A stretch of DNA of 64,000 nt, taken from Ruminococcus bromii. GTDB taxonomy: Bacteria; Bacillota; Clostridia; Oscillospirales; Acutalibacteraceae. Made by a program: the position numbers and the translations under genes. Of this stretch, positions 19,433-30,266 are shown in pieces. Position 1 is the stretch's first letter; every line of letters starts with the position of its first letter. The notes beneath the pieces are model-generated. The model did not search any database, was not told where the DNA came from, and saw only the letters and a list, made by a program, of their open reading frames with translations. The stretch lies in contig NZ_NNSR01000013.1 of NCBI RefSeq assembly GCF_002834225.1, positions 1-64,000 on the forward strand. Reading direction: 5' to 3'.

Positions 19433-19625
19433 ATTACCTGATTTTGGAAAGGCGGTTTTTTTGAGGGGGATCAGGCGGAAATCTTTGCGATTGATTTTTG
19501 GTTGTGACTAATTATTTTTAAAAATATTTTTGGAAAAATGCATTAAAGTATGCAATTTTTTTGAATTTTGCAGGTATAAGTGAGAGGCGTTGATAAAGCC
19601 TCTCGAAAAACGGAGGTGACGAGAT
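19433..19625 (+). promoter_or_regulatory. Upstream region of the phage-derived cassette
   Basis: This AT-rich region of about 190 bases holds the inverted repeat TGCAT/ATGCA (19539-19554), a possible operator, and a hairpin GAGAGGC/GCCTCTC (19582-19604) just before the ribosome binding site GGAGGTGA (19612-19619). I see no clear promoter pair. No repressor or integrase gene is present. Confidence 0.45.
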
Positions 19626-20105
19626 ATCAGAAAATTGACAGGTAGGGAAAAGAAGTTTTGCAGTTTATTTCTCGGTTCGGGAAATTCCGAGCTTGCCGCA
19701 GAAAAGGCAGGCTACACAGGGGATTGTGAGCAGAAGGGGGAAGAGCTTATCTGCCGTCCCGAAATTTCAGCCGAGCTTGAACGGCTGTCACGGCTAAGAG
19801 AAAAATCCCTTGCCAATATGGCGGCGGCAGGGTATCAGCGGTTGGCTTTCGGGAGCATTTGCGACGCAATTTCTTTGCTTTACAAAAGTGATCCGAGCAA
19901 GGAGGACCTTGAGGGAATGGATTTGTTCCTTGTGTCGGAGATTAAAAGACCAAAGGACGGTTCAATGGAAATCAAGTTTTTTGACAGGCTAAAGGCACTT
20001 GAAAAACTCGGTGCCGGCGGAGAGCATGAAACAGGCGCAAAACAGCTTTTTGACGCCATTTCAAACAGTGCAAGGGCGGTGAATGACAAGGAAAATGGAA
20101 ATTAA
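19626..20105 (+). CDS. Phage terminase small subunit
   Basis: The protein is about 159 residues and resembles the PBSX XtmA group. It should bind packaging-site DNA and recruit the large subunit. The N-terminal LTGREKKFCSLFL helix and the AAEKAGYTG helix-turn-helix-like segment match small terminases. The start is unusual: the only optimally spaced codon after GGAGGTGA is ATC at 19626 (6-base gap), which gives MRKLTGRE. The first standard alternative is TTG at 19635, 15 bases from the site and lacking the conserved first residues. This could be a decayed ATG. The gene overlaps the large subunit by 23 bases. Confidence 0.82.
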   Translation: MRKLTGREKKFCSLFLGSGNSELAAEKAGYTGDCEQKGEELICRPEISAELERLSRLREKSLANMAAAGYQRLAFGSICDAISLLYKSDPSKEDLEGMDLFLVSEIKRPKDGSMEIKFFDRLKALEKLGAGGEHETGAKQLFDAISNSARAVNDKENGN

Positions 20106-21354
20106 AGCTTTTTCTAAAAAACAGCTTACCGTGCTTTCGTGGTGGAACAGGGAGTCGGCTTTTCGTGACAGGGACGCAATCATCTGTGACGGTGCTGTGC
20201 GCAGCGGAAAGACATTTTGTATGTCGCTGTCGTTCATTTTGTGGAGCTTTTACGATTTTGCTAATTCGGACTTTGCACTTTGCGGAAAGACAATCCGTTC
20301 TTTAAGGCGAAATATGATTACGCCCGTGATTCCGATTTTGAAATCACTCGGTTTTAAGTGTGAAGAAAAGCTGTCGCAGAATATTTTGACCGTGAGCGTT
20401 AACGGAGTGATGAACAGGTTTTATCTTTTCGGGGGCAAGGACGAGTCATCCGCATCGCTCATTCAGGGCATGACGCTTTCGGGTGTGCTTTTTGACGAGG
20501 TTGCGTTGATGCCGAGGTCGTTCGTTGAACAGGCATTGGCGAGATGTTCCGTGTCGGGCTCAAGATTTTGGTTTAACTGCAATCCCGAATTTCCTGAGCA
20601 TTGGTTCTACCGTGAGTGGATTAAGAAGTGCGGTGACAAAAATGCGTTATATCTGCACTTTACAATGCAGGACAATCCGTCTTTGAAGCCCGAGGTTATC
20701 AAGAGGTATGAAAGTATGTATTCGGGTGTGTTTTACGAGAGGTTCGTAAAGGGCAGATGGGTAGCCGTTTTCGGTGCGGTTTATCCGTTTATGGACGATG
20801 AAAAGATGTACTGCGATATTCCGTCAGATATTGAAAGCTGGGCGGTATCGTGCGATTACGGTACTGTAAATCCCGCATCATTCGGTTTGTGGGGCAGAAA
20901 AAACGGTGTGTGGTACAGGGTTGACGAATACTACTTCAACTCACGCACGCAGGGCTTTCAAAAGACCGACGAGGAGCATTATGACGGACTTGAAAAGCTG
21001 ATTGACGGGCGGAAAATCGAATGTGTGATTGTCGATCCGTCTGCCGCAAGCTTTATTGAGGTTATAAGGAGACACGGAAAATACACGGTTGTGTCGGCTG
21101 AAAACAATGTTATCAACGGCATAAGGCAGACTTCGCAGGCTTTGAAGGACAGAAAAATCAGAATCTGCAAAAATTGCAGAGCCGCAAGAAGGGAATTTTC
21201 GCTTTACCGTTGGGACGGTTCAGGGCGCAGTGACGCACCTGTTAAGGAAAACGACCATGCAATGGACGACATAAGATATTTTGTCGCTACGAAAATTTAC
21301 GGTTGTGACGGATTCTTTGCCGTTGCAACCAAAAGACAGGAGGAAACAGCTTGA
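20083..21354 (+). CDS. Phage terminase large subunit
   Basis: This 423-residue packaging motor of the PBSX XtmB type would translocate and cut DNA at the capsid portal. Walker A GAVRSGKT lies at 37-44 and Walker B is VLFDE with D138-E139. The C-terminal nuclease has acidic residues at about D258 (SCDYGT), D318 (VIVDPSA) and D395 (DHAMDDIRY). All motifs are intact, so the motor could work. It overlaps its neighbours by 23 and 4 bases. Confidence 0.92.
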   Translation: MTRKMEIKAFSKKQLTVLSWWNRESAFRDRDAIICDGAVRSGKTFCMSLSFILWSFYDFANSDFALCGKTIRSLRRNMITPVIPILKSLGFKCEEKLSQNILTVSVNGVMNRFYLFGGKDESSASLIQGMTLSGVLFDEVALMPRSFVEQALARCSVSGSRFWFNCNPEFPEHWFYREWIKKCGDKNALYLHFTMQDNPSLKPEVIKRYESMYSGVFYERFVKGRWVAVFGAVYPFMDDEKMYCDIPSDIESWAVSCDYGTVNPASFGLWGRKNGVWYRVDEYYFNSRTQGFQKTDEEHYDGLEKLIDGRKIECVIVDPSAASFIEVIRRHGKYTVVSAENNVINGIRQTSQALKDRKIRICKNCRAARREFSLYRWDGSGRSDAPVKENDHAMDDIRYFVATKIYGCDGFFAVATKRQEETA

Positions 21355-22505
21355 GGCTTGGCAGAAAAAATAAAAAGACCGAGAGCATAAAGACGGTGCA
21401 GACCGTTTTGAGAGAAACGAGAAATAATTCGCCGATTTTCTCACGATTTGCCGTTCAGACGAGAACGGAAAGGCAGCTGTACACAACTTTGCGTGAGTCT
21501 GTGCCGATTATTGATGCGGCACTCTGCAAAATTATCAGACTTATCGGCGGATTCAAAATTGTGACTTCATCAGCTGAAAGTCAGAAGATTGCCGACAGCT
21601 TTGTTAAAAATGTCCGCACAAACGGTGAAATGATGGGACTTGAAAGCTTTGTGCTTTGCTATCTTGATTCGCTTCTCACCTACGGACAGGCGGTCGGTGA
21701 GATTGTTCCCGATAGTGGCGGTGAAGGAATTTGCGCATTGTATAATGCAAGCCTTGATGATGTTGAAATCAGAGCGGATTCTTCTCCGCTGAAGCTTGCT
21801 GTTTACACACTCGGCAACGGTACAGCCGAAAAACCTAAGCATCCGGAAAGGATTTTTGCAACCCTGCTTAATCCCAAGCCGGGTACTGTGTGCGGTACTT
21901 CCATACTCAGCGGTTTGCCGTTTGTCAGCTCAATACTTTTGAGGATTTTTGAGTCGGTAAAAACAAACTGGGAGAGGGTTGGCGATATCCGTTTTGCGGT
22001 TACTCTCAATCCCGATTCAAACGGTTCGGCTGTGAGCAGAGAAAATGCACAGGCGGTTGCCGATGAGTGGAAAAAGGCGATGAGAAGCGACAGCGTGTGT
22101 GATTTTGTGTCGGTCGGCGATGTCAGCATTAAGGTTATCGGTGCTGAAAGCGATATGCCCGACTGTGACATTCCAGTAAGGCATATTCTTGAGCAGATTA
22201 TTGCAAAGCTTGGTATTCCGCCGTTTTTGCTCGGCATTTCGTGGTCGAGTACGGAGAGAATGAGCGAACAGCAGGCGGATATCCTCACAAGCGAGCTTGC
22301 CTACTACCGCACAGTGCTTGAACCCGTGATTACAAAAATTGTGTCGGCTCATCTTAAAATGTGCGGTTATAACGACAGCTTTAAGATTGAGTGGGATAAG
22401 ATCAATCTTCAGGATGCGGTTGAGCTTTCTCAGGCAAGACTTAACAATGCAAATGCGATGAACATTGAAAGACAGATTGGAGCGGAGGTGCAGAATGAAG
22501 GATAA
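21351..22505 (+). CDS. Phage portal protein
   Basis: This 384-residue protein would form the ring at the capsid vertex through which DNA passes. Position directly after the large terminase, length, and a C-terminal helical region with PPFLLGISW and ERMSEQQADI support a portal of the type seen in PBSX-like Firmicutes prophages. It starts at TTG 21351 within an overlap with the terminase stop. It is shorter than the B. subtilis PBSX portal, from memory close to 500 residues. It overlaps the protease gene by 11 bases. Confidence 0.8.
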   Translation: MRLGRKNKKTESIKTVQTVLRETRNNSPIFSRFAVQTRTERQLYTTLRESVPIIDAALCKIIRLIGGFKIVTSSAESQKIADSFVKNVRTNGEMMGLESFVLCYLDSLLTYGQAVGEIVPDSGGEGICALYNASLDDVEIRADSSPLKLAVYTLGNGTAEKPKHPERIFATLLNPKPGTVCGTSILSGLPFVSSILLRIFESVKTNWERVGDIRFAVTLNPDSNGSAVSRENAQAVADEWKKAMRSDSVCDFVSVGDVSIKVIGAESDMPDCDIPVRHILEQIIAKLGIPPFLLGISWSSTERMSEQQADILTSELAYYRTVLEPVITKIVSAHLKMCGYNDSFKIEWDKINLQDAVELSQARLNNANAMNIERQIGAEVQNEG

Positions 22506-23490
22506 CAAACTTATTAAAAGCGGTGTTTCGGGTGTTGTTGACGGTGAAAATCAGACTGTCGGTGATGATGAACTCGAACTGATTAACCGCTTTACAAGGC
22601 GAAATCTTGCAAAAAATGAGGTGTATGCGTTTTCGGTTGTGCTGTGTGACAACGATGTTGACCGTGACGGCGAACGCTTTACAACAGATTCGCTTTATGA
22701 GCTTGAAAAGCTTTTTGTCGGCAAGACAGGAATTATTGACCACAATCCGAGTGCCAAAAATCAGACGGCGAGAATTTTCAGCTGTAAGGTTGAGAAAATT
22801 GACGGTCAGAAAACGACCTTGGGTGACGATTACTACAGGCTCAAGGCAAGGGCATATCTTCCCGTTTGTGAGAGCAACAGGGATATTATCCTTGCGATTG
22901 ACAGCGGAATTATCAAGGAAGTAAGCGTTGGCTGTGCCGTTGGCAGGGTTGTGTGCAATGTGTGCGGTGAGGACATCTCGATGTGTACTCACAAAAAGGG
23001 TGAGGTTTACGGTTCAAAGCTTTGTTGCGGTGAACTTGTGAACCCGTATGACGCATACGAATGGAGCTTTGTTGCCGTGCCGTCACAAAAGAGGGCAGGC
23101 ATTACGAAAGGTCACAAAATTTTTGGAAAGGAAAATGATATGGAGAAAATTCTTAAAGCCATTGAAAACAAAAAGGCTTTTGCACTTGATGAGAGCGACA
23201 GCAGAAAGCTGTGCGAATATATTGACGGGCTTAAAAAGTCGGCTAAGGACGGTGTGCTGTACCGTGAAAGCCTTACCCGTGATGTTGTGGGACTTGCCGC
23301 TTTTGTTCAGCCTGACATTTCGGGCGAAACAATGGAGAGCGTTGCAAAGAGCATGACAATTGAACAGCTCAGAGAATTTAAGTCAGCATTTGAAAAGAAA
23401 AAGAAAGCAGCTTTTGAGCCTGTCCCGCAGCTTTACTGCAAGCAGGACAAGAGAAATAACGCCGTGGAAAACGGTCAGTTCAGTATTTAA
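22495..23490 (+). CDS. XkdF-like prohead protease with C-terminal scaffold region
   Basis: This 331-residue protein has an N-terminal protease domain (about 35-200) with probable catalytic H83 (IDHNPS) and S144 (KEVSVGCA), the His-Ser arrangement of prohead proteases. A cysteine cluster (CNVCGED, SMCTH, KLCCGEL) at 154-179 probably binds zinc. The C-terminal 116 residues are helical and charged, like a scaffold. An in-frame ATG at 23140 with its own ribosome binding site could make that part separately. The chosen ATG at 22495 follows GGAGGTG; the longer frame from 22465 is inside the portal gene. Confidence 0.82.
   Translation: MKDNKLIKSGVSGVVDGENQTVGDDELELINRFTRRNLAKNEVYAFSVVLCDNDVDRDGERFTTDSLYELEKLFVGKTGIIDHNPSAKNQTARIFSCKVEKIDGQKTTLGDDYYRLKARAYLPVCESNRDIILAIDSGIIKEVSVGCAVGRVVCNVCGEDISMCTHKKGEVYGSKLCCGELVNPYDAYEWSFVAVPSQKRAGITKGHKIFGKENDMEKILKAIENKKAFALDESDSRKLCEYIDGLKKSAKDGVLYRESLTRDVVGLAAFVQPDISGETMESVAKSMTIEQLREFKSAFEKKKKAAFEPVPQLYCKQDKRNNAVENGQFSI
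23140..23490 (+). CDS. Possible nested scaffold protein from an internal start
   Basis: Within the protease gene, GGAAAGGA at 23125-23132 lies 7 bases before an in-frame ATG at 23140. It would yield a 116-residue helical protein (MEKILKAIENKK at its start) identical to the protease C-terminus. This mirrors the lambda C/Nu3 arrangement, where the scaffold is a nested in-frame product. The capsid protein lacks a long N-terminal scaffold-like arm, so a separate scaffold makes sense. It is predicted, not shown. Confidence 0.5.
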   Translation: MEKILKAIENKKAFALDESDSRKLCEYIDGLKKSAKDGVLYRESLTRDVVGLAAFVQPDISGETMESVAKSMTIEQLREFKSAFEKKKKAAFEPVPQLYCKQDKRNNAVENGQFSI

Positions 23491-23503
23491 CGGAGGTATT
23501 ATT

Positions 23504-23839
23504 ATGAATGTAAATTTTAACGGTTATGGCGAAAATGCCGCAACATTTATTGCAGACAAAACAATTACGGAGGCAGGCGTGCCTGTTAAGATGAAGGACA
23601 ACGGCACAGTTGCAAAATGTGACGCAAGCGAGAATTTTTGCGGTGTGTGCGTAAGCGTGAGAGGCGGTTATGCGGTTGTTCAGCTTTCGGGCTATGTAAA
23701 GGTTAAGAGCGACAAGAAAATCACCGTCGGCTACAAAAAGCTTTCTGCAACGGCAGTCGGTGGCGTGTCGGTTACAACAACCGGCAGAGAGTACCTTGTG
23801 CTTGACTCAACAGACACTTCGGTAGGATTTATTCTTTGA
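23504..23839 (+). CDS. Probable capsid decoration protein
   Basis: This 111-residue beta-rich protein lies between protease and capsid genes, where head-decoration proteins such as lambda gpD usually lie. It is rich in Val, Gly and Thr with short strands (YAVVQLSGYVKVK) and has no signal or membrane segment. The ATG at 23504 is placed just after CGGAGG. The function is inferred from position, size and composition. Confidence 0.65.
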   Translation: MNVNFNGYGENAATFIADKTITEAGVPVKMKDNGTVAKCDASENFCGVCVSVRGGYAVVQLSGYVKVKSDKKITVGYKKLSATAVGGVSVTTTGREYLVLDSTDTSVGFIL

Positions 23840-23857
23840 TAAGGGGAGGAAGATATT

Positions 23858-24865
23858 ATGGCAAATTTTGAAAATATTACAATTGAAAAGGGTATGTATC
23901 AGACAAAGGGCGGAATTTCGGGCGCACTTGAAAAGCTTGATCCGTCAGAAAATTACAGAGGTACTGCACTTGAGGGACTTGACGCATTTTCCCGTCAGCT
24001 CAAACGCTTTGACATTAAGGTTAAGGGCAGAAACAGCGACTGTGTTGAAAAGTTTTTTCAGAGTTCAAACTCTGCGGCACTTTTCCCCGAATATGTGAGC
24101 AGAGCCGTTATGCAGGGCATGGAGAGAGCGGATATTCTCCCAAATCTTGTGGCAACCGTGACAGACATTGAGGGTATGGATTACCGCAGTATTGCATCTG
24201 TTCCGAGTGAGGATGATAAGAGCCTTAAACTCGTCGGCGAGGGTGCAAAGATTCCGCAGACTGAGGTTAAGACAAGAGAAAACCTTGTTAAGCTTCACAA
24301 GCGTGGCAGAATGCTTGTTGCATCATATGAGGCACTTCGCTTTCAGCGTCTTGACCTCTTTACCGTAACACTCAATCAGATTGGCGCATATATTGCAAGA
24401 GCACAGCTTAAAGATGCGATTGATGTGCTTGTGAACGGTGACGGCAATGAAAATCCCGCCGGCACACTTGGTGTTGCAACAGGCGGCAAGGTTACATATG
24501 AGGACCTTTTAAAGCTCTGGACAGAGCTTGCTCCGTATGAACTCAACACAATTCTTGCGTCAACTCCCGAAATGCAGAAGATTCTTTCGCTCTCTCAGCT
24601 TCAGGATTCAAACGCAGGTCTTGATTTTCAGGCTACGGGCAGAATGATTACACCTCTCGGTGCAAGCCTTCTTCACACTCCTGAGCTTGAGGGCGGTAAG
24701 ATTATCGGTCTTGACAAAAACTGTGCGCTTGAAATGGTTCAGGCAGGCGGTGTTGTTACAGATTACGACAAGCTTATTGACCGTCAGCTTGAAAGAGCCG
24801 CAGTTACCTGTACCGCTGGTTTTTCAAAAATCTTTACAGAGGCGTCAAAGGTGATGAGCTGTTAA
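23858..24865 (+). CDS. Phage major capsid protein, HK97-fold type
   Basis: This 335-residue protein should form the icosahedral shell. Typical features are the KLHKRGRMLVASYEALRF segment, the NGDGNENPAG loop and the C-terminal region preceding VTCTAGFSKIF. These resemble XkdG-like and other HK97-fold capsids. There is no long N-terminal delta domain. GGGGAGG precedes the ATG. The frame is intact, with codon use like its neighbours. Confidence 0.85.
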   Translation: MANFENITIEKGMYQTKGGISGALEKLDPSENYRGTALEGLDAFSRQLKRFDIKVKGRNSDCVEKFFQSSNSAALFPEYVSRAVMQGMERADILPNLVATVTDIEGMDYRSIASVPSEDDKSLKLVGEGAKIPQTEVKTRENLVKLHKRGRMLVASYEALRFQRLDLFTVTLNQIGAYIARAQLKDAIDVLVNGDGNENPAGTLGVATGGKVTYEDLLKLWTELAPYELNTILASTPEMQKILSLSQLQDSNAGLDFQATGRMITPLGASLLHTPELEGGKIIGLDKNCALEMVQAGGVVTDYDKLIDRQLERAAVTCTAGFSKIFTEASKVMSC

Positions 24866-24877
24866 GGAGGGATTGCC

Positions 24878-25231
24878 TTGAACATTGCAAACATTACAAA
24901 GCGTTTTGCCTTATACAGCGGTATTGACGGTGCTGAAGCATACAAATGGAAAAGCATTATTGACGATGCGGTTGTGTATGTTAATTCGATTGTTACGAAG
25001 GAAAATCTTTCGGAGGATGACGAATTAAGACTTGAAAACCTATGTGCCGTTTACGCTTTTAAGTTGTATTCCCTTTGCAATGATGACAGCATTTCTTCTT
25101 TTTCCGCAGGTGATTTGAAAATCTCATCATCTGCGGACGGCGAAAGCCGAGCCGAAAAGCTGTGGAGGGAATATGCCGACAAGTCGCAGGACCTTATCGG
25201 CAGAGAAAAATTTTTGCTTGGGGTGATATGA
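24878..25231 (+). CDS. Head-tail connector protein
   Basis: This 117-residue, mainly helical protein lies directly after the capsid, where gp6/XkdH-type adaptors lie. The pattern of an early hydrophobic helix, an acidic middle (LSEDDELRLENL) and a charged tail fits such adaptors. Translation starts at TTG 24878 after AAGGAGGG. It overlaps the next gene by 4 bases in ATGA. The role is assigned by gene order rather than motif. Confidence 0.62.
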   Translation: MNIANITKRFALYSGIDGAEAYKWKSIIDDAVVYVNSIVTKENLSEDDELRLENLCAVYAFKLYSLCNDDSISSFSAGDLKISSSADGESRAEKLWREYADKSQDLIGREKFLLGVI

Positions 25232-25581
25232 TGAATATTTCACCGTCTATCGGGAAAATATTAAACAGATACGGCTGTGATGTTACCGTTAAAAACGGAG
25301 ATGAAACGGTTAAGACAAAGGCTTTTATTTCACCTTTGAGATACAACTTCAATCAGAATTATGAAAGTGTGCGGCATAAACTGGGTATGAGAAAAACGAA
25401 GCTGTTTTTGTTTATTGCACCGCCCGATGTTTTGCTTAATTCGGAAAAAAGCGTAATAGAAAGTGAAAACGGTAAATATACTGTTAAAAGGTGCGAAAAA
25501 TATTATGTGCAGGATAATCCGATTTATGTCAGGGCTGTTCTGTGTGCGTACAGAGAAGAAACGAGGGATGATTTTGAATAG
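25228..25581 (+). CDS. Head-closure-like protein
   Basis: This 117-residue protein begins at ATG 25228, overlapping the previous stop by 4 bases; the adjacent ATG at 25231 is an alternative. It is beta-rich, with KLFLFIAPPD in the middle and RAVLCAYRE near the end. Gene order (capsid, adaptor, this, tail completion) matches XkdI-type head-closure or stopper proteins. No specific motif is recognised. Confidence 0.58.
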   Translation: MMNISPSIGKILNRYGCDVTVKNGDETVKTKAFISPLRYNFNQNYESVRHKLGMRKTKLFLFIAPPDVLLNSEKSVIESENGKYTVKRCEKYYVQDNPIYVRAVLCAYREETRDDFE

Positions 25582-26005
25582 AATTGAGAAACAGGTTGAC
25601 CGTATTATTGCAGGCTTAAAGATAAATGAGGCTTTGAAAAATGTCAGGTTTATAAGAGAGTACGGCTCTGATGAAGCACCGTCACCGGTGAACGGAATGA
25701 CTGCCGTTGTGTCGGTGAGAGATATGTCAACGGAGAAGAGCTATATCGGCGGATACCTTTCACCGTCTATCAAGGGCGAAAGCTACAGCGCAGGCGTTGA
25801 AATCAGGGTGTATGCTCCTGCAACCGAGAACGGAAGCGGTCTTTCGGAGGTTGTCAGTGAAATTCTTCTCGGACTTAAAACTGCCGACGCTGAAAAGACG
25901 ATTACCCACAGTGAGGCGGCTTCAATTGAATTTGACCCCGATATGAACGCAATTTACAGAACAGTAAGCTTTAATATGGAATTCTGTCTTTGCGAGGAGG
26001 TTTAA
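25568..26005 (+). CDS. Tail completion/terminator-like protein
   Basis: This 145-residue protein overlaps the previous gene by 14 bases. An N-terminal helix (RIEKQVDRIIAGL) is followed by a beta region with SYSAGVEIRVYAP and a final strand VSFNMEFCL. Size and position fit the proteins that cap the tail tube at the head (XkdJ-like). In PBSX the sheath gene comes next; here it is absent and the tube-like gene starts at the next base. Confidence 0.58.
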   Translation: MILNRIEKQVDRIIAGLKINEALKNVRFIREYGSDEAPSPVNGMTAVVSVRDMSTEKSYIGGYLSPSIKGESYSAGVEIRVYAPATENGSGLSEVVSEILLGLKTADAEKTITHSEAASIEFDPDMNAIYRTVSFNMEFCLCEEV

Positions 26006-26371
26006 ATGGACGGCTTTGAGTTTGAAAATTGCGGAAAAGCCATATTGAAATGTGAGGGGAAAATTCTCGGCGGCGTTGAAAAGGCAACCTGTACAAGAAA
26101 GAACTCCTTCACGGAAATCAAGGAATTTCTCAATGACAAGCCCGTTGAGAGGATTGTTTCAAATGAATGGGAACTCACATTTGAAATGAGGCTTACTGAC
26201 GAAACTCCGTTTTTGGAGCGTGACAGCTTTAAAAATCTTGAGCTTGACCTTGCGAAGAAGAAAATTGTTTACACGGATTGCAAAGTGCTTGAATTTTCAA
26301 GCGTTACTCAGGGCAGCGGAAGTATTCTTGCAACCGTGAAAATCAGTGCCGACGAGAGGAAAATTATATGA
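26006..26371 (+). CDS. Tail tube-like protein
   Basis: This 121-residue beta-rich protein resembles contractile-tail tube proteins of the XkdM kind. It starts with a short strand and a GGVEKATCTRKNSFTEIKEF segment and ends with a strand-turn-strand KVLEFSSVTQGSGS. It is immediately preceded by the previous stop codon and overlaps the 49-residue gene by 4 bases. If it forms a tube, its length would lack the usual tape measure to set it. The assignment rests on pattern and gene order. Confidence 0.55.
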   Translation: MDGFEFENCGKAILKCEGKILGGVEKATCTRKNSFTEIKEFLNDKPVERIVSNEWELTFEMRLTDETPFLERDSFKNLELDLAKKKIVYTDCKVLEFSSVTQGSGSILATVKISADERKII

Positions 26372-26517
26372 ATGATAAAAATTCAGACGAACTTTACAGG
26401 CTTGCGGAGTCTGAGAACGGCGGTAAAGATACCGAGATGTTCGGTGAATTCCTTGAAAGGGAAAGCCGCCGTTACAGCCGCAGGCTTGATGAAGAAGAGG
26501 AGGCGAAAAGCCGATGA
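26368..26517 (+). CDS. 49-residue charged protein in the tape-measure position
   Basis: This very small gene is joined to both neighbours by 4-base ATGA overlaps. The product is strongly charged and helical (EFLERESRRYSRRLDEEEE), with no membrane segment. In PBSX-type clusters the chaperone and tape-measure genes sit exactly here, between tube and LysM genes. It could be a minimal assembly chaperone or what remains after deletion. The coupling of both ends argues that it is translated. Confidence 0.6.
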   Translation: MNDKNSDELYRLAESENGGKDTEMFGEFLERESRRYSRRLDEEEEAKSR

Positions 26518-27029
26518 AACCGGTGCCGATGAAATTCGGTGAATATGTGTGGCATCATAATCCGCAGAATATCAGCTTTGAATGTGACAAGAGCGTTGCA
26601 GAAATGAAAAGTCCGTTCGGCGAATCTTCCGTTCAGGATATGGGGCGGAAGAATATGAAAATCAGCGGTTCGGGACAGCTGTACGGCGAGGATTGTGCCG
26701 AACAGTTTGAAAAGCTGTTTGAGGTGTTCAGAAACAGCGGAAAGGAAGTGCTTTCCGTGCCGAGCCTGCCGAGCGTTTATGCTGTGTTTGAAAAGCTTGA
26801 AATAAAGGGCGAGCCAAAGCCGAATGTGCTTGAATACAGCTTTGTATTCCGTGAGGTTATGGAGAAAAAGCAGAAAACGGTAATTACATATTTTGACTGT
26901 GAAAACGGACAAACCCTGTGGGACATTGCATACAAAACAGGGGTGAAAATTGACGAGCTTGTGCGGCTGAATCCCGATGTTAAGTTCCCCGATGATGACC
27001 TTGGAACAAGGAGGGTGAGGCTGTGCTGA
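26514..27029 (+). CDS. LysM-containing tail hub protein
   Basis: This 171-residue protein is XkdP-like. The N-terminal approximately 120 residues form a tail domain (KFGEYVWHHNPQNISFE at the start). A LysM-type fold covers about 125-171, with the NGQTLWDIAYKTG and LVRLNPDV elements. In contractile particles such proteins sit at the tube-baseplate junction and the LysM may touch peptidoglycan. It overlaps its neighbours by 4 and 7 bases. Confidence 0.75.
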   Translation: MKPVPMKFGEYVWHHNPQNISFECDKSVAEMKSPFGESSVQDMGRKNMKISGSGQLYGEDCAEQFEKLFEVFRNSGKEVLSVPSLPSVYAVFEKLEIKGEPKPNVLEYSFVFREVMEKKQKTVITYFDCENGQTLWDIAYKTGVKIDELVRLNPDVKFPDDDLGTRRVRLC

Positions 27030-27979
27030 CTTACTTTTTTACGGACAAAAACGGCATAAGGTGTAAAATTAAAAATGTCCTTACTGTTGAAATTTCGGCA
27101 GATGTCGATGTGCCTGCCAATGAGCTTGTGCTGACTGTGCCGTATGACAGAAAGTACAGGAATGTTGATATGCTTGAGGCTTATGACGGCAAGTCGCTTG
27201 TATTTGTTGGGCAGGCGGACGAGATTGTCAGCATTGTGAGAACCGACGGTGCGATTGTAAGGCTGAGTGCAAGGAGTCTTGCCGGAAGGCTTCTCGACAA
27301 TGAGGCGGAGCCTGTTACATATATAAATCCTGCGGCAAAGTTCATTTTTGAAAGGCATTTAAAGCCGTTCGGAATTGTCGGTTATGACGGTGACGAACAT
27401 CCGTTTATGGGCACAATCAAAATTGAAAAGGGTATGACCGAGTGGCAGGTGCTTGAAAAATTCTGCAACGGCAGATACGGCAAAGGTCCGAGAATTACGG
27501 GTGCGGGATTTGCCTTGATGTGCGGAACTTACGGCGGTGCAGAGCCGATTGTGTTCGGCAGAAACGGAGTAGGCTACACATCTCTGCGTGAGTACATAAA
27601 GCCGTGCAAGGTGATTTCGCAGGTCAAACTACGCACCGAGGAATACGGCGGTTACAAGAGTGTTGTCGGCAACGGCAGTGCTGCCGACAGAATTAAGAGA
27701 GTTAGATATGTAAACGCTTTTCTCGACAACAACGCGGTTAAAACAGCCGACAGAATGATTGAAAACGGCAACAGGCAGAGCTTTGAAATAATGCTTGAAT
27801 GTGCAGAATGTCTGTGCGGAGTTGTCGGCAGAAGGGCTGTGATTGATGACTCTCTCCTTGGAAAAAGAGAGGGCTTGGTTGTGAAAAGCATTAAATATTC
27901 ACTTGGGAAAAACGGTGAAAGCACAACGGTTGTGCTTGGAAAGGAGAACGGCGATGTGGCTGATGAATTACATAACTAA
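27023..27979 (+). CDS. Baseplate hub protein, gpD/XkdQ-like
   Basis: This 318-residue protein starts at GTG 27023 after AAGGAGGG. The order LysM protein then this gene, the length, and the segments VFVGQADEIVS, SLAGRLLDNEAEP and GMTEWQVLEKFC match the late-control-D/XkdQ hub family. These trimeric hubs connect tube and spike. It is intact and overlaps the next gene by 26 bases. Confidence 0.78.
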   Translation: MLTYFFTDKNGIRCKIKNVLTVEISADVDVPANELVLTVPYDRKYRNVDMLEAYDGKSLVFVGQADEIVSIVRTDGAIVRLSARSLAGRLLDNEAEPVTYINPAAKFIFERHLKPFGIVGYDGDEHPFMGTIKIEKGMTEWQVLEKFCNGRYGKGPRITGAGFALMCGTYGGAEPIVFGRNGVGYTSLREYIKPCKVISQVKLRTEEYGGYKSVVGNGSAADRIKRVRYVNAFLDNNAVKTADRMIENGNRQSFEIMLECAECLCGVVGRRAVIDDSLLGKREGLVVKSIKYSLGKNGESTTVVLGKENGDVADELHN

Positions 27980-28283
27980 AAATTCGATTACCGCTCCTAA
28001 GGCGGAAAGAGGCGGTGTGAAAAGTTCGGGAAACACCGTTTCGGTTGACTCTTCGGAAGAACACAGGGGGATAAAATGTTGCGTGCCATACGGCTTTGCA
28101 AGCGTTGTTCCGGTTGGAGAGTCGGCGGTTGTATTGCCGCTTGCCAACGGTGAAGTGAGCCTTGGTGTGCTTGCGAAAAATGTTGAGCTTGATGAGGGCG
28201 AGGTTATGCTCTCGTCAAAGGGCGGAGCGAGTATTGTGCTGAAAAATGACGGCAGGGTTCTTATCAACGGCAAGGCGGTGTAG
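27954..28283 (+). CDS. Baseplate spike-like protein (gpV-type)
   Basis: This 109-residue protein starts at ATG 27954 after AAGGAG, inside the hub gene. The middle is an OB-fold-like region (GFASVVPVGESAVVLPLANGE). The end has a repeating strand pattern, EGEVMLSSKG-GASIVLKNDG-RVLINGKAV, like the beta-helical tip of membrane-piercing spikes. It is much shorter than phage P2 gpV. It is assigned by pattern and neighbourhood. Confidence 0.62.
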   Translation: MWLMNYITKNSITAPKAERGGVKSSGNTVSVDSSEEHRGIKCCVPYGFASVVPVGESAVVLPLANGEVSLGVLAKNVELDEGEVMLSSKGGASIVLKNDGRVLINGKAV

Positions 28284-28284
28284 A

Positions 28285-28614
28285 ATGAGGGATATAATGA
28301 TAAAAAACGGTGACACAGTTATCAATTCTTCGGGCAGTACGGTGCTGCTTGAGGGGCTTGACGCAAAATTTCAGCAGGCTGTGATTTGTATTTCGGCAAA
28401 GCTCGGCGTATTTGTTTATGACCGAGAACTCGGTTCGACTGTTGCTTTACAGAGCAAAACGCTTTCGGCAAAACAACTTGAACTGCTTGCCAATGAATCG
28501 CTTGCCGAAATGGAAAACGCCTTTGCAAGCATTAAGGATGTCGGCAGAAAAATTACAATTGACCTTACGGTTGACGGAATTACAAGGGAGGTACAGATAA
28601 ATGGATACATATGA
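28285..28614 (+). CDS. Baseplate wedge protein, gp25/XkdS-like
   Basis: This 109-residue protein begins at ATG 28285, directly after the spike stop. It contains an early helix (LDAKFQQAVICI), a GVFVYDRELGS turn and a C-terminal strand pair ending TREVQINGYI. This resembles gp25/XkdS-type wedge proteins that always lie next to the gpJ gene. It overlaps gpJ by 14 bases. Confidence 0.68.
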   Translation: MRDIMIKNGDTVINSSGSTVLLEGLDAKFQQAVICISAKLGVFVYDRELGSTVALQSKTLSAKQLELLANESLAEMENAFASIKDVGRKITIDLTVDGITREVQINGYI

Positions 28615-29659
28615 CGAAATTTACGGCAGAATGAAGAATGTATATGAGCAGGAAACAGGCGACAGTTTTAATGAAAAAAGCGATATTGCAATCAGGCTCA
28701 AGGTGCTTGCGGGCGAGATTTTCAAGGTGCAGACAAACCTTGAGTGGTGGAAAAGACAGATGTTTGCAGTGAGCGCAAGCGGTGAATGCCTTGATAAACT
28801 CGCATCGCAGAGGGGAATTGAACGCAAAAAGGCGATGAAGTCAACGGGCGAAATTACATTCTATATTTCTCAGCCGTGCAGTCACGATATTATAATTCCA
28901 AAGGGCTGTGTTGTGGCAACGGCAGACCCTGTGCCTGTGAGATATGTTACAACGGAAGATGAAGAAATCAGCGCAGGCAACACGCTTGTGAGTGTTTATG
29001 CCGAGGCTGAACAGGCGGGGAGTAACGGTAATATCGGGCTTGGTTGTGCGGTTGTTCCCGTGAGTGTGCCGACAGAGATTGAAACGGTTACAAACCGTGA
29101 AAAATTTACGGGCGGTTGTGACGCAGAAACGGATGACGAACTTCGCAAACGCATAAGGGATACATATGTCAACACCTCTAACGGCACGAATGCGGCATAT
29201 TATGAACAGCTTGCATTCTCGGTTGACGGTGTGGCTAAGGCCTGTGCCGTCGGTAAGGTGAGAGGCTTTGGCACGGTAAATATTTATGTTACAGGTTCGG
29301 ATGCCGCTGTCAGTACTGATGTTGTTGCAAAAGTTCAGGAAATTGTTGCAAAGCAGAGAGAGCTGAATGTGGATGTTCTTGTTGTCAATGCTCAGCGTAC
29401 TGCTTGTAATATGAGTGTGACGGTTTATGCCGAGGACGGCTATTCTTCATCGGAGGTGAAAGCTCTGCTTTCAAAGGCTTTTGCGGATTATGTTAATTCA
29501 ATTCCGATTGGCGGAACTTTTCATCTTGCGGAGCTGGGAGCAAAGCTCGTTGCAACGGGATGTATAAATAACTACACTTGGAATACCGATATGCAGGATG
29601 TGACAGCGGCAAAATCGCAGTGCTTCACAGTCGGTACGGTTACGATTGGGGTGAAGTGA
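28601..29659 (+). CDS. Baseplate J-like protein
   Basis: This 352-residue gpJ/XkdT-family wedge protein has diagnostic features: an N-terminal YDEIYGRM helix, FAVSASGECLDKLASQRGI, the GGCDAETDDELRKRI motif and the C-terminal AELGAKLVATG. This is the most recognisable baseplate gene of the set. It overlaps its neighbours by 14 bases and 1 base. Confidence 0.9.
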   Translation: MDTYDEIYGRMKNVYEQETGDSFNEKSDIAIRLKVLAGEIFKVQTNLEWWKRQMFAVSASGECLDKLASQRGIERKKAMKSTGEITFYISQPCSHDIIIPKGCVVATADPVPVRYVTTEDEEISAGNTLVSVYAEAEQAGSNGNIGLGCAVVPVSVPTEIETVTNREKFTGGCDAETDDELRKRIRDTYVNTSNGTNAAYYEQLAFSVDGVAKACAVGKVRGFGTVNIYVTGSDAAVSTDVVAKVQEIVAKQRELNVDVLVVNAQRTACNMSVTVYAEDGYSSSEVKALLSKAFADYVNSIPIGGTFHLAELGAKLVATGCINNYTWNTDMQDVTAAKSQCFTVGTVTIGVK

Positions 29660-30138
29660 TGAACAGCTTTGAGTCGATGAAAACAAAATTAGAAGGCACG
29701 GGGCTTTATGATATTACGGCAAAATCAAATATCGGCGCGGAGCTTTTGGCATATGCAGAGGGACTGGATTCGGTGTTTGATATGCTTGAAATGATGGAAC
29801 GGGAGCTGTTTATTGATACGGCAGAGGATTTCGGAATTGCAGAAAGAGAAAGGTTTGTCGGCAAGGTGCGTGAGGGGTATTCTATTGAAAAACGCAGAGA
29901 TATGCTCAAAATTGCGGAGCAGAAAGTCGGCGGAAGGTGTACTCTCAATGATTTTAAACAGTTTGTCAGGGGCTACGGTGCGGAAAACTTTACAATAACG
30001 GAAATTGCACTCAAAAACCGTGTAAATTTGAAAATTTTTGACACAAAAACAGACGCAGAGAAAAAATATATCGAAAAATGTGTAAGTGCAGATTTTCCTT
30101 TACATCTCAATGTTGTGGTTTCATATGAAAAACCGTAA
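29659..30138 (+). CDS. Tail protein gpI/XkdU-like
   Basis: This 159-residue protein starts at ATG 29659, sharing a base with the gpJ stop. It matches the DUF2313/XkdU type: a helical N-terminus (SVFDMLEMMERELFID), EKRRDMLKIAEQKVGG, and a beta C-terminus. It normally links baseplate to tail fibres, but no fibre gene follows and the cassette ends here with a terminator. Confidence 0.8.
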   Translation: MNSFESMKTKLEGTGLYDITAKSNIGAELLAYAEGLDSVFDMLEMMERELFIDTAEDFGIAERERFVGKVREGYSIEKRRDMLKIAEQKVGGRCTLNDFKQFVRGYGAENFTITEIALKNRVNLKIFDTKTDAEKKYIEKCVSADFPLHLNVVVSYEKP

Positions 30139-30232: not shown

Positions 30233-30266
30233 ATGACAGGTTGAAAATTTCAGCCTGTTATTTTTT
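30233..30266 (+). terminator. Terminator closing the phage-derived cassette
   Basis: ATGACAGGTTGAAA pairs with TTTCAGCCTGTTAT (G-U allowed), followed by TTTTTTG. It lies about 95 bases after the last cassette gene. Confidence 0.85.

Follow-up and report, generated by a model that had tools for sequence, protein, structure and literature searches.

A candidate gene transfer agent-like system with a very short tail and leader-linked loci in Ruminococcus bromii

We analysed 64,000 nucleotides of Ruminococcus bromii (NCBI RefSeq assembly GCF_002834225.1, contig NZ_NNSR01000013.1, positions 1 to 64,000; hereafter the window), which carry a compact cassette of phage structural genes. With a probability of roughly 70%, we read this cassette as a structural operon for a phage particle that has been domesticated, is passed on vertically and acts like a gene transfer agent (GTA). 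Judged from its genes, the operon encodes a complete packaging motor, a capsid, a neck, one tube protein and a baseplate, and a common leader marks both the operon and unlinked host loci for lysis, fibre and replication-initiator-like proteins. The best reading of the whole is a multi-locus, GTA-like system with a very short tail, which would be akin to FpGTA of Faecalibacterium. Two of the six GTA features of Kogay et al. (PMC9662315) were tested here, multi-locus endogenization and vertical inheritance with host co-diversification, and both were found; we keep the label at GTA-like, not proven GTA. A first-pass annotation, made from the letters of the window, had proposed a maintained, reduced, GTA-like particle, and single-copy retention, host co-divergence, purifying selection and the derived loss of sheath and tape measure support that proposal. 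This would place a GTA-like system in gut and rumen Ruminococcus, a group that ranks among the commonest bacteria of the gut, and gives this large genus a defined gene set, trans lysis and fibre loci and a shared regulatory element, so that which genes make particles, and what triggers them, is now directly testable.

Retention, inheritance and selection of the cassette

The capsid gene was present as a single intact copy, with no stops, in 54 of 60 genomes of the genus, and most of the capsid-negative genomes were incomplete metagenome-assembled genomes (MAGs). An order-wide sample contained it in 84 of 396 genomes, nearly always in one copy: in 43 of the 52 genomes of the window's family, in many of two more families and rarely elsewhere. 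A scan of GTDB species contigs gave at least 584 confirmed matches; among the matches listed, titles were mainly of uncultured Ruminococcus. We tested co-divergence in 28 genomes by comparing a tree of the large terminase subunit (TerL), portal, protease and capsid with an rpoB tree. Fourteen of the 16 rpoB splits with support ≥90 recurred at ≥90 in the cassette tree, with no strong conflicts; label-shuffled trees shared at most 3 splits (mean 0.18). Mantel r between cassette and rpoB was 0.86 overall and 0.82 within the genus. Gene-by-gene dN/dS, which the first-pass annotation had named as a check, indicated purifying selection on every gene, with medians from 0.08 (capsid) to 0.39 (Nei-Gojobori, pairs up to dS 1.5; absolute values are rough). 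Terminase, portal and protease ranked among the best conserved cassette genes, and gene lengths across loci showed almost no truncation. These comparisons indicate that the cassette is vertically inherited, not acquired by infection. An ordinary recent remnant, the reading that would have followed had relatives carried a full-length prophage here or had frames decayed across strains, is ruled out by the genus-wide intact retention, the host co-divergence and the dN/dS values. Frames were intact across genomes; relatives with sheath and tape measure do exist, yet they belong to other families and their cassette is the same one, again free of an integrase.

The commonest site in the genus, represented by L037 and some 20 further loci, adjoins a GerA spore germination gene and a pair of small SpmA/SpmB-like genes, one with a Gate domain. 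Cassettes at this site carry a 17th gene after gpI, c0, which is fibre-like and 153-155 aa long. The window copy is without c0 and is located between trx and YitT. When the ancestral site was sought in the window's genome, the closest GerA protein proved to be a 26% paralogue, and sister genomes contained no close orthologue of the trx flank, so that neither flank accounts for the move of the window copy. The chromosomal site differs in some species, the window's included, and many contigs of this type of ~10-14 kb are classed as viruses in IMG/VR, which could point to repeated acquisition, from one shared and still unsampled phage lineage, of prophage remnants or satellite-like elements. We consider such a history very improbable: it is contradicted by the congruence of the cassette tree with the host, no capsid relative above 30% identity was found among named phages, and the closer capsid matches were unannotated faecal contigs, of which the one read at length (46 kb) was a piece of host chromosome. 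Also against it, the common site beside GerA/SpmA-B-like genes is shared by many species, and no integrase belongs to the compact cassette.

Loss of the contractile tail

In the window, neck/connector protein 3 (con3; 25571..26005, forward strand, as are all cassette genes below) abuts the tail tube gene (26006..26371) with a gap of 0 nt at the sheath slot (26005/26006), and 142 nt (26372..26513) separate the tube gene from that of a DNA_circ_N/LysM baseplate protein (XkdP-like; 26514..27029; DNA_circ_N 3.7e-6, LysM 2e-4). A sheath, chaperone or tape measure would therefore have no room here; when the compact and long forms are compared, the 142-nt gap is seen to be the relatives' slot for tail chaperones and tape measure. 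No match to the contractile-tail sheath family Phage_sheath_1 (PF04984) was found in the whole 99.95%-complete genome, confirming the earlier observation that a sheath is missing, and Baseplate_J occurs once, so that no second baseplate exists elsewhere in this genome. The 121-aa product of the tube gene, earlier described as tube-like, is predicted to fold as a tail tube: its AlphaFold model (pLDDT 86, 58-row alignment) matched the tail/neck of phage 812 in Foldseek (1.2e-6) and RcGTA virion chain 6tba_50 in VIA (Z 10.7, rmsd 4.9, 113 aligned).

We surveyed the architecture of about 200 loci with iterative hidden Markov models and found it to be bimodal. The 138 cassettes without a sheath had a median neck-to-LysM distance of 481 nt, and the 34 sheath-bearing cassettes one of 2,587 nt, with a sheath of ~340-355 aa (Phage_sheath_1C 3e-7 and 7.7e-11 in relatives). 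In the long form, two overlapping chaperone frames usually come next after the sheath, then an acidic protein of 130-290 aa in the tape-measure position; the chaperone frame overlap at L120:7909-8546 and L118:13065-13699 resembles a programmed frameshift. Mapped on the cassette tree, the long form characterizes family f14 and a part of f26; nearly all of the window's family (f1) lacks a sheath. Since copies in other families have sheath and tape measure, their loss is derived and fixed. A single intermediate, the nested member L232, keeps the sheath with a tube-to-LysM distance of only 193 nt, which suggests that the tape measure was lost before the sheath, with regain also possible. Between the two forms, the tube showed the largest shift in dN/dS, from 0.15 with a sheath to 0.37 without, and the values of the baseplate genes hardly differed. 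In the gp25 alignment no loss of the sheath-binding region was visible. The expected particle would be a capsid with neck and baseplate, between which a single tube ring or a few may sit, a geometry inferred from the gene content. Taken across the family, the cassettes form a natural series whose ends are a complete contractile tail and no tail at all, and the forms are fixed in host lineages.

At the far end of this series are relatives with head genes only (terminase to connectors) in host chromosome context (L051 (MT835508.1), L203, L211, L223 and L226). L047 and L048, with the order code f15, are likewise head-only. The baseplate is not split off to another locus in two of these genomes, G250 (L223) and G270 (L226), as neither has a Baseplate_J anywhere. 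Such genomes would suit a capsid compartment inside the cell for storage or stress, in which tail genes persist as nothing more than a plug. We find this the least probable of the explanations considered, as the baseplate is kept under selection in most of the family and the holin/endolysin and fibre genes behind the leader point to particles that are released and bind targets.

A common leader upstream of the cassette and of unlinked loci

Upstream of the small terminase subunit gene (TerS), the window carries a leader element (19523..19599, forward strand) composed of the hairpin AAAATGCATTAAAGTATGCAATTTTTTT, a constant spacer and TATAAGTGAGAGG (covariance model R1, 67 bits, E=3.4e-12). Across loci, the arms AAATTGCATA-N4-TATGCAATTTTTTT are followed by a near-constant spacer and TATAAGTGAGAGG, whatever the neighbouring host genes and in f26 loci too. 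Among 53 distinct sequences, 94.5% of hairpin cells were paired, with 33 double-change cells against a shuffled mean of 9.9, and the pairing collapsed when the columns were slid by one. The TTGC/GCAA part is nearly invariant, so that protein contact at the leader is also possible, and a DNA operator instead of an RNA switch stands as an alternative. Antitermination by GafZ controls the GTA cluster of Caulobacter (PMC11150451), a precedent that would make a terminator in the leader a natural switch. LexA-type boxes and a sigma-A promoter upstream of TerS did not exceed shuffled expectation. The TATAAG of the leader is unlikely to be a -10 box because most trans copies have a start codon immediately after it, with no space for a transcript start before the ribosome site.

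Run on whole genomes without reference to genes, the covariance model recovered the cassette copy and several further full-length copies per genome. It gave 0 matches at 1e-3 in 16 cassette-free genomes outside the genus, a one-sided control given that the model was trained mainly on the genus. We counted 80 non-cassette or contig-edge leader sites in 33 genomes, 72 of them directly 5' of phage-type genes. The next gene encoded a fibre/BppU-like protein at 28 sites, a replication-initiator, DnaD or DUF6291-like protein at 20, an XhlA/holin-led lysis operon at 11, a VapE or D5/NrS-1 primase at seven, a MuF-barnase at four, TerS of another cassette at two and other products at eight; these classes come from all-against-all clustering plus Pfam and PHROGs on 74 of the 80, and single assignments may be wrong. 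Seventeen genomes had a leader-linked lysis gene.

In the window's genome, three such loci lie on contigs unlinked to the cassette: a lysis operon (leader at C46:57,433) encoding XhlA (3.1e-5), a holin-like protein of 78 aa (phrog_443 0.0088) and an Amidase_3-SH3 endolysin (5.1e-13; phrog_435 2.1e-23); a fibre-like gene cut by the contig end (leader at C24:1,763; phrog_25888 3.5e-4); and an HTH_36 protein gene (leader at C12:17,351; 2.8e-14). The first-pass statement that fibre, holin and endolysin are missing therefore holds for the cassette and fails for the genome, where these genes stand behind the same leader. These trans loci do not represent stray pieces of prophage. A lysis or fibre site was found 3' of uvrA in nine genomes, even with differing endolysin type, and in six a fibre site adjoins one OGG1-like and one HIT-like gene. 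One weak leader match in another family (L420, genome G267) precedes a gene that is abortive-infection (Abi)-like by sequence.

Two of the eight replication-initiator-like (rep-like) genes examined contained regular intragenic repeats, namely four 21-nt direct repeat units at L360:4436-4538 and three units of 23-24 nt at L407:609-680. These are iteron-like, and phage origins often contain regular repeats.

Four leader-linked loci in three Ruminococcus species carried a MuF-barnase gene with a barstar-like neighbour, the latter assigned from sequence: L329:6289-6885(-), L381:334-930(+), L392:339-908(+) and L411:4187-4804(-), in genomes G016 (two loci), G030 and G054. At L329, matches to Phage_Mu_F (9.5e-6) and Ribonuclease (3.9e-13) identify a MuF polymorphic toxin, a type seen here in relatives of the window's genome. 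This fusion of a MuF N-terminus to barnase behind the leader is what a domesticated weapon would be expected to carry, that is, a PBSX-type particle or capsid-borne bacteriocin that acts by MuF-barnase toxin or cell damage and not by DNA transfer; PBSX itself is defective and kills, and a role as weapons that phages deliver has been proposed for MuF toxins (PMC5576092). We judge a weapon unlikely as the function of the system. MuF had no match in the window's genome and was present in just 5 of 26 genomes tested, the contractile puncturing device is gone, unlike in tailocins, and conservation is among the strongest in terminase, portal and protease.

Proposed mechanism

With a GTA-like particle as the preferred reading, we propose that one signal acting on the common leader, by antitermination or a regulator, would activate all loci in a small fraction of cells, letting transcription pass, or begin at, the leader hairpin of each locus. 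Terminase would then fill capsids with short pieces of chromosomal DNA, and the neck, tube and baseplate would form a stub of little or no length, as in a podovirus-like tail. The operon of holin, XhlA and endolysin (amidase) would lyse the producer and release particles, whose fibres may bind kin cells. For the rep-like genes, run-off replication as with the GTA of Bartonella is a candidate role. A broader version, in which a gut-wide multi-locus GTA combines an antitermination-type leader, phage O/DnaD-like run-off origins that amplify host DNA, stepwise stripping of the tail and MuF-barnase loading in some species, is offered as an unlikely possibility.

Several points weigh against a GTA. 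The system is known here from its genes, from which particle, packaged DNA and transfer are inferred. Phage-type replication genes under the same leader are unusual for most GTAs and could indicate another role, and MuF-barnase in three species suggests that some particles could serve as weapons. In addition, fragmented MAGs weaken the synteny claims, and the genus members compared are mostly uncultured.

Comparison with known systems

The closest described counterpart is FpGTA. Borodovich et al. 2026 (PMC12946183) found GTA-like packaging to be prominent in Ruminococcaceae/Oscillospiraceae, with DNA of 4.6 kb packaged in R. callidus, for which they gave no gene cluster; a GTA gene cluster was named only for Faecalibacterium (FpGTA I and II) and none for Ruminococcus. 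FpGTA forms ~40-nm capsids without visible tails in electron microscopy, with ~9-kb DNA, is near-ubiquitous in its genus and encodes its baseplate, fibre and lysis proteins in a second operon (PMC12946183). The present system shares the Ruminococcaceae/Oscillospiraceae setting, a small integrase-free phage-derived head operon, lysis and fibre genes separate from it and near-ubiquity in the genus. It differs in that FpGTA I has ten genes, with the baseplate on FpGTA II, whereas here head and baseplate form one operon and lysis, fibre and rep-like genes occupy several loci behind one leader. We suggest that it works like FpGTA, a likeness drawn from the published description of that system.

PBSX of Bacillus subtilis, which is defective and host-maintained, has the same gene order (terminase-portal-capsid-connectors-tube-XkdP/Q/S/T/U). 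The genes for sheath, chaperones, tape measure, fibres and lysis form a single block in PBSX, whereas the present cassette has lost the sheath and tape measure and its lysis genes lie at an unlinked locus. RcGTA/CcGTA (Rhodogtaviriformidae) resemble the present system in vertical inheritance, a multi-locus genome, the tail-tube fold and co-regulated accessory loci, but are unrelated in sequence and siphovirus-like with a tape measure, and we know of no shared leader hairpin of such a kind in them. CcGTA is controlled by activation and antitermination (PMC11150451). In BaGTA of Bartonella, run-off replication accompanies particle production (PMC2697382), so that phage-derived replication functions are tied to particles, as the leader-linked rep-like genes might be; BaGTA has one replication origin, in contrast to the many dispersed single-gene rep-like loci here, whose role is putative. 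MuF polymorphic toxins of Firmicutes, described as exclusive to temperate phages (PMC5576092), likewise join a MuF domain to a C-terminal nuclease with an adjacent immunity-like gene, whereas here short MuF-barnase genes stand alone behind a GTA-like leader. We found no account in the open-access literature of this leader hairpin, of the scattered loci that share it or of the series of tail losses. Complete cassettes from chromosomes, 10-11 kb in length, are filed as viruses (L056, L057, L058, L073 and L075 in IMG/VR, and MT836604.1), and such entries in viral databases would inflate gut phage counts.

Gene layout of the cassette in the window

The cassette spans 19,635-30,138 and consists of 16 co-oriented, mostly overlapping phage structural genes with 0 internal stops. 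About 17 had been proposed; the count fell to 16, and the description of the frames as overlapping and uninterrupted stood, as did the gene order from the terminase pair to gpI, borne out by open reading frames, Pfam and PHROGs. No integrase, repressor or replication block, as in a temperate prophage, was found within 19,635-30,138.

TerS (19635..20105; Terminase_2 4.2e-13) has no ATG and its start is uncertain: the earliest standard start is TTG at 19,635, and the Shine-Dalgarno-like GGAGGTGA at 19,612-19,619 is also compatible with a start at 19,626. It is followed by TerL (20083..21354; Terminase_6N 3.2e-13, phrog_2 2e-46, dN/dS 0.15) and the portal protein (21351..22505; phrog_30703 3.6e-112). 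The next protein, of 341 aa (22465..23490, start perhaps 22495; phrog_16951 1e-96), is by its predicted fold a prohead protease. Its AlphaFold model gave nothing below 0.001 against the PDB but clear viral matches, the best being the prohead serine protease A0A8S5T591 (40% identity, E 1.7e-20). The head decoration protein (23504..23839; phrog_4588 virion structural 7.5e-17) is probably 111 aa long, with its start at 23,504, not 159 aa, and precedes the HK97-type major capsid protein (23858..24865; Phage_capsid_4 4.2e-16, phrog_3922 3e-97).

Neck/connector protein 1 (24878..25231) was assigned by position and conservation, with no family match, and proteins 2 (head-tail adaptor-like, 25228..25581; phrog_793 0.15) and 3 (con3, tail-terminator-like; phrog_37 0.047) by weak matches in conserved order. 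Beyond the tube and LysM genes lie a gpD-like baseplate hub (27023..27979; phrog_177 4.7e-13), a Mu gp45-like baseplate spike (27903..28283; Phage_Mu_Gp45 3.9e-5), a gp25-like baseplate wedge or sheath initiator (28246..28614; phrog_120 9.5e-4, Sheath_initiator 0.013, weak), the baseplate wedge gpJ (28601..29659; Baseplate_J 2.4e-46) and the tail protein gpI (29578..30138; phrog_521 2.2e-8). An intrinsic terminator, GACAGGTTGAAAATTTCAGCCTGTTATTTTTT, was read from the letters 3' of gpI (about 30235..30266, forward strand) and is not in the terminator scan list, as the scan requires an uninterrupted stem. Host genes, trx and YitT, flank the unit on either side and a terminator of its own follows gpI, as first annotated.

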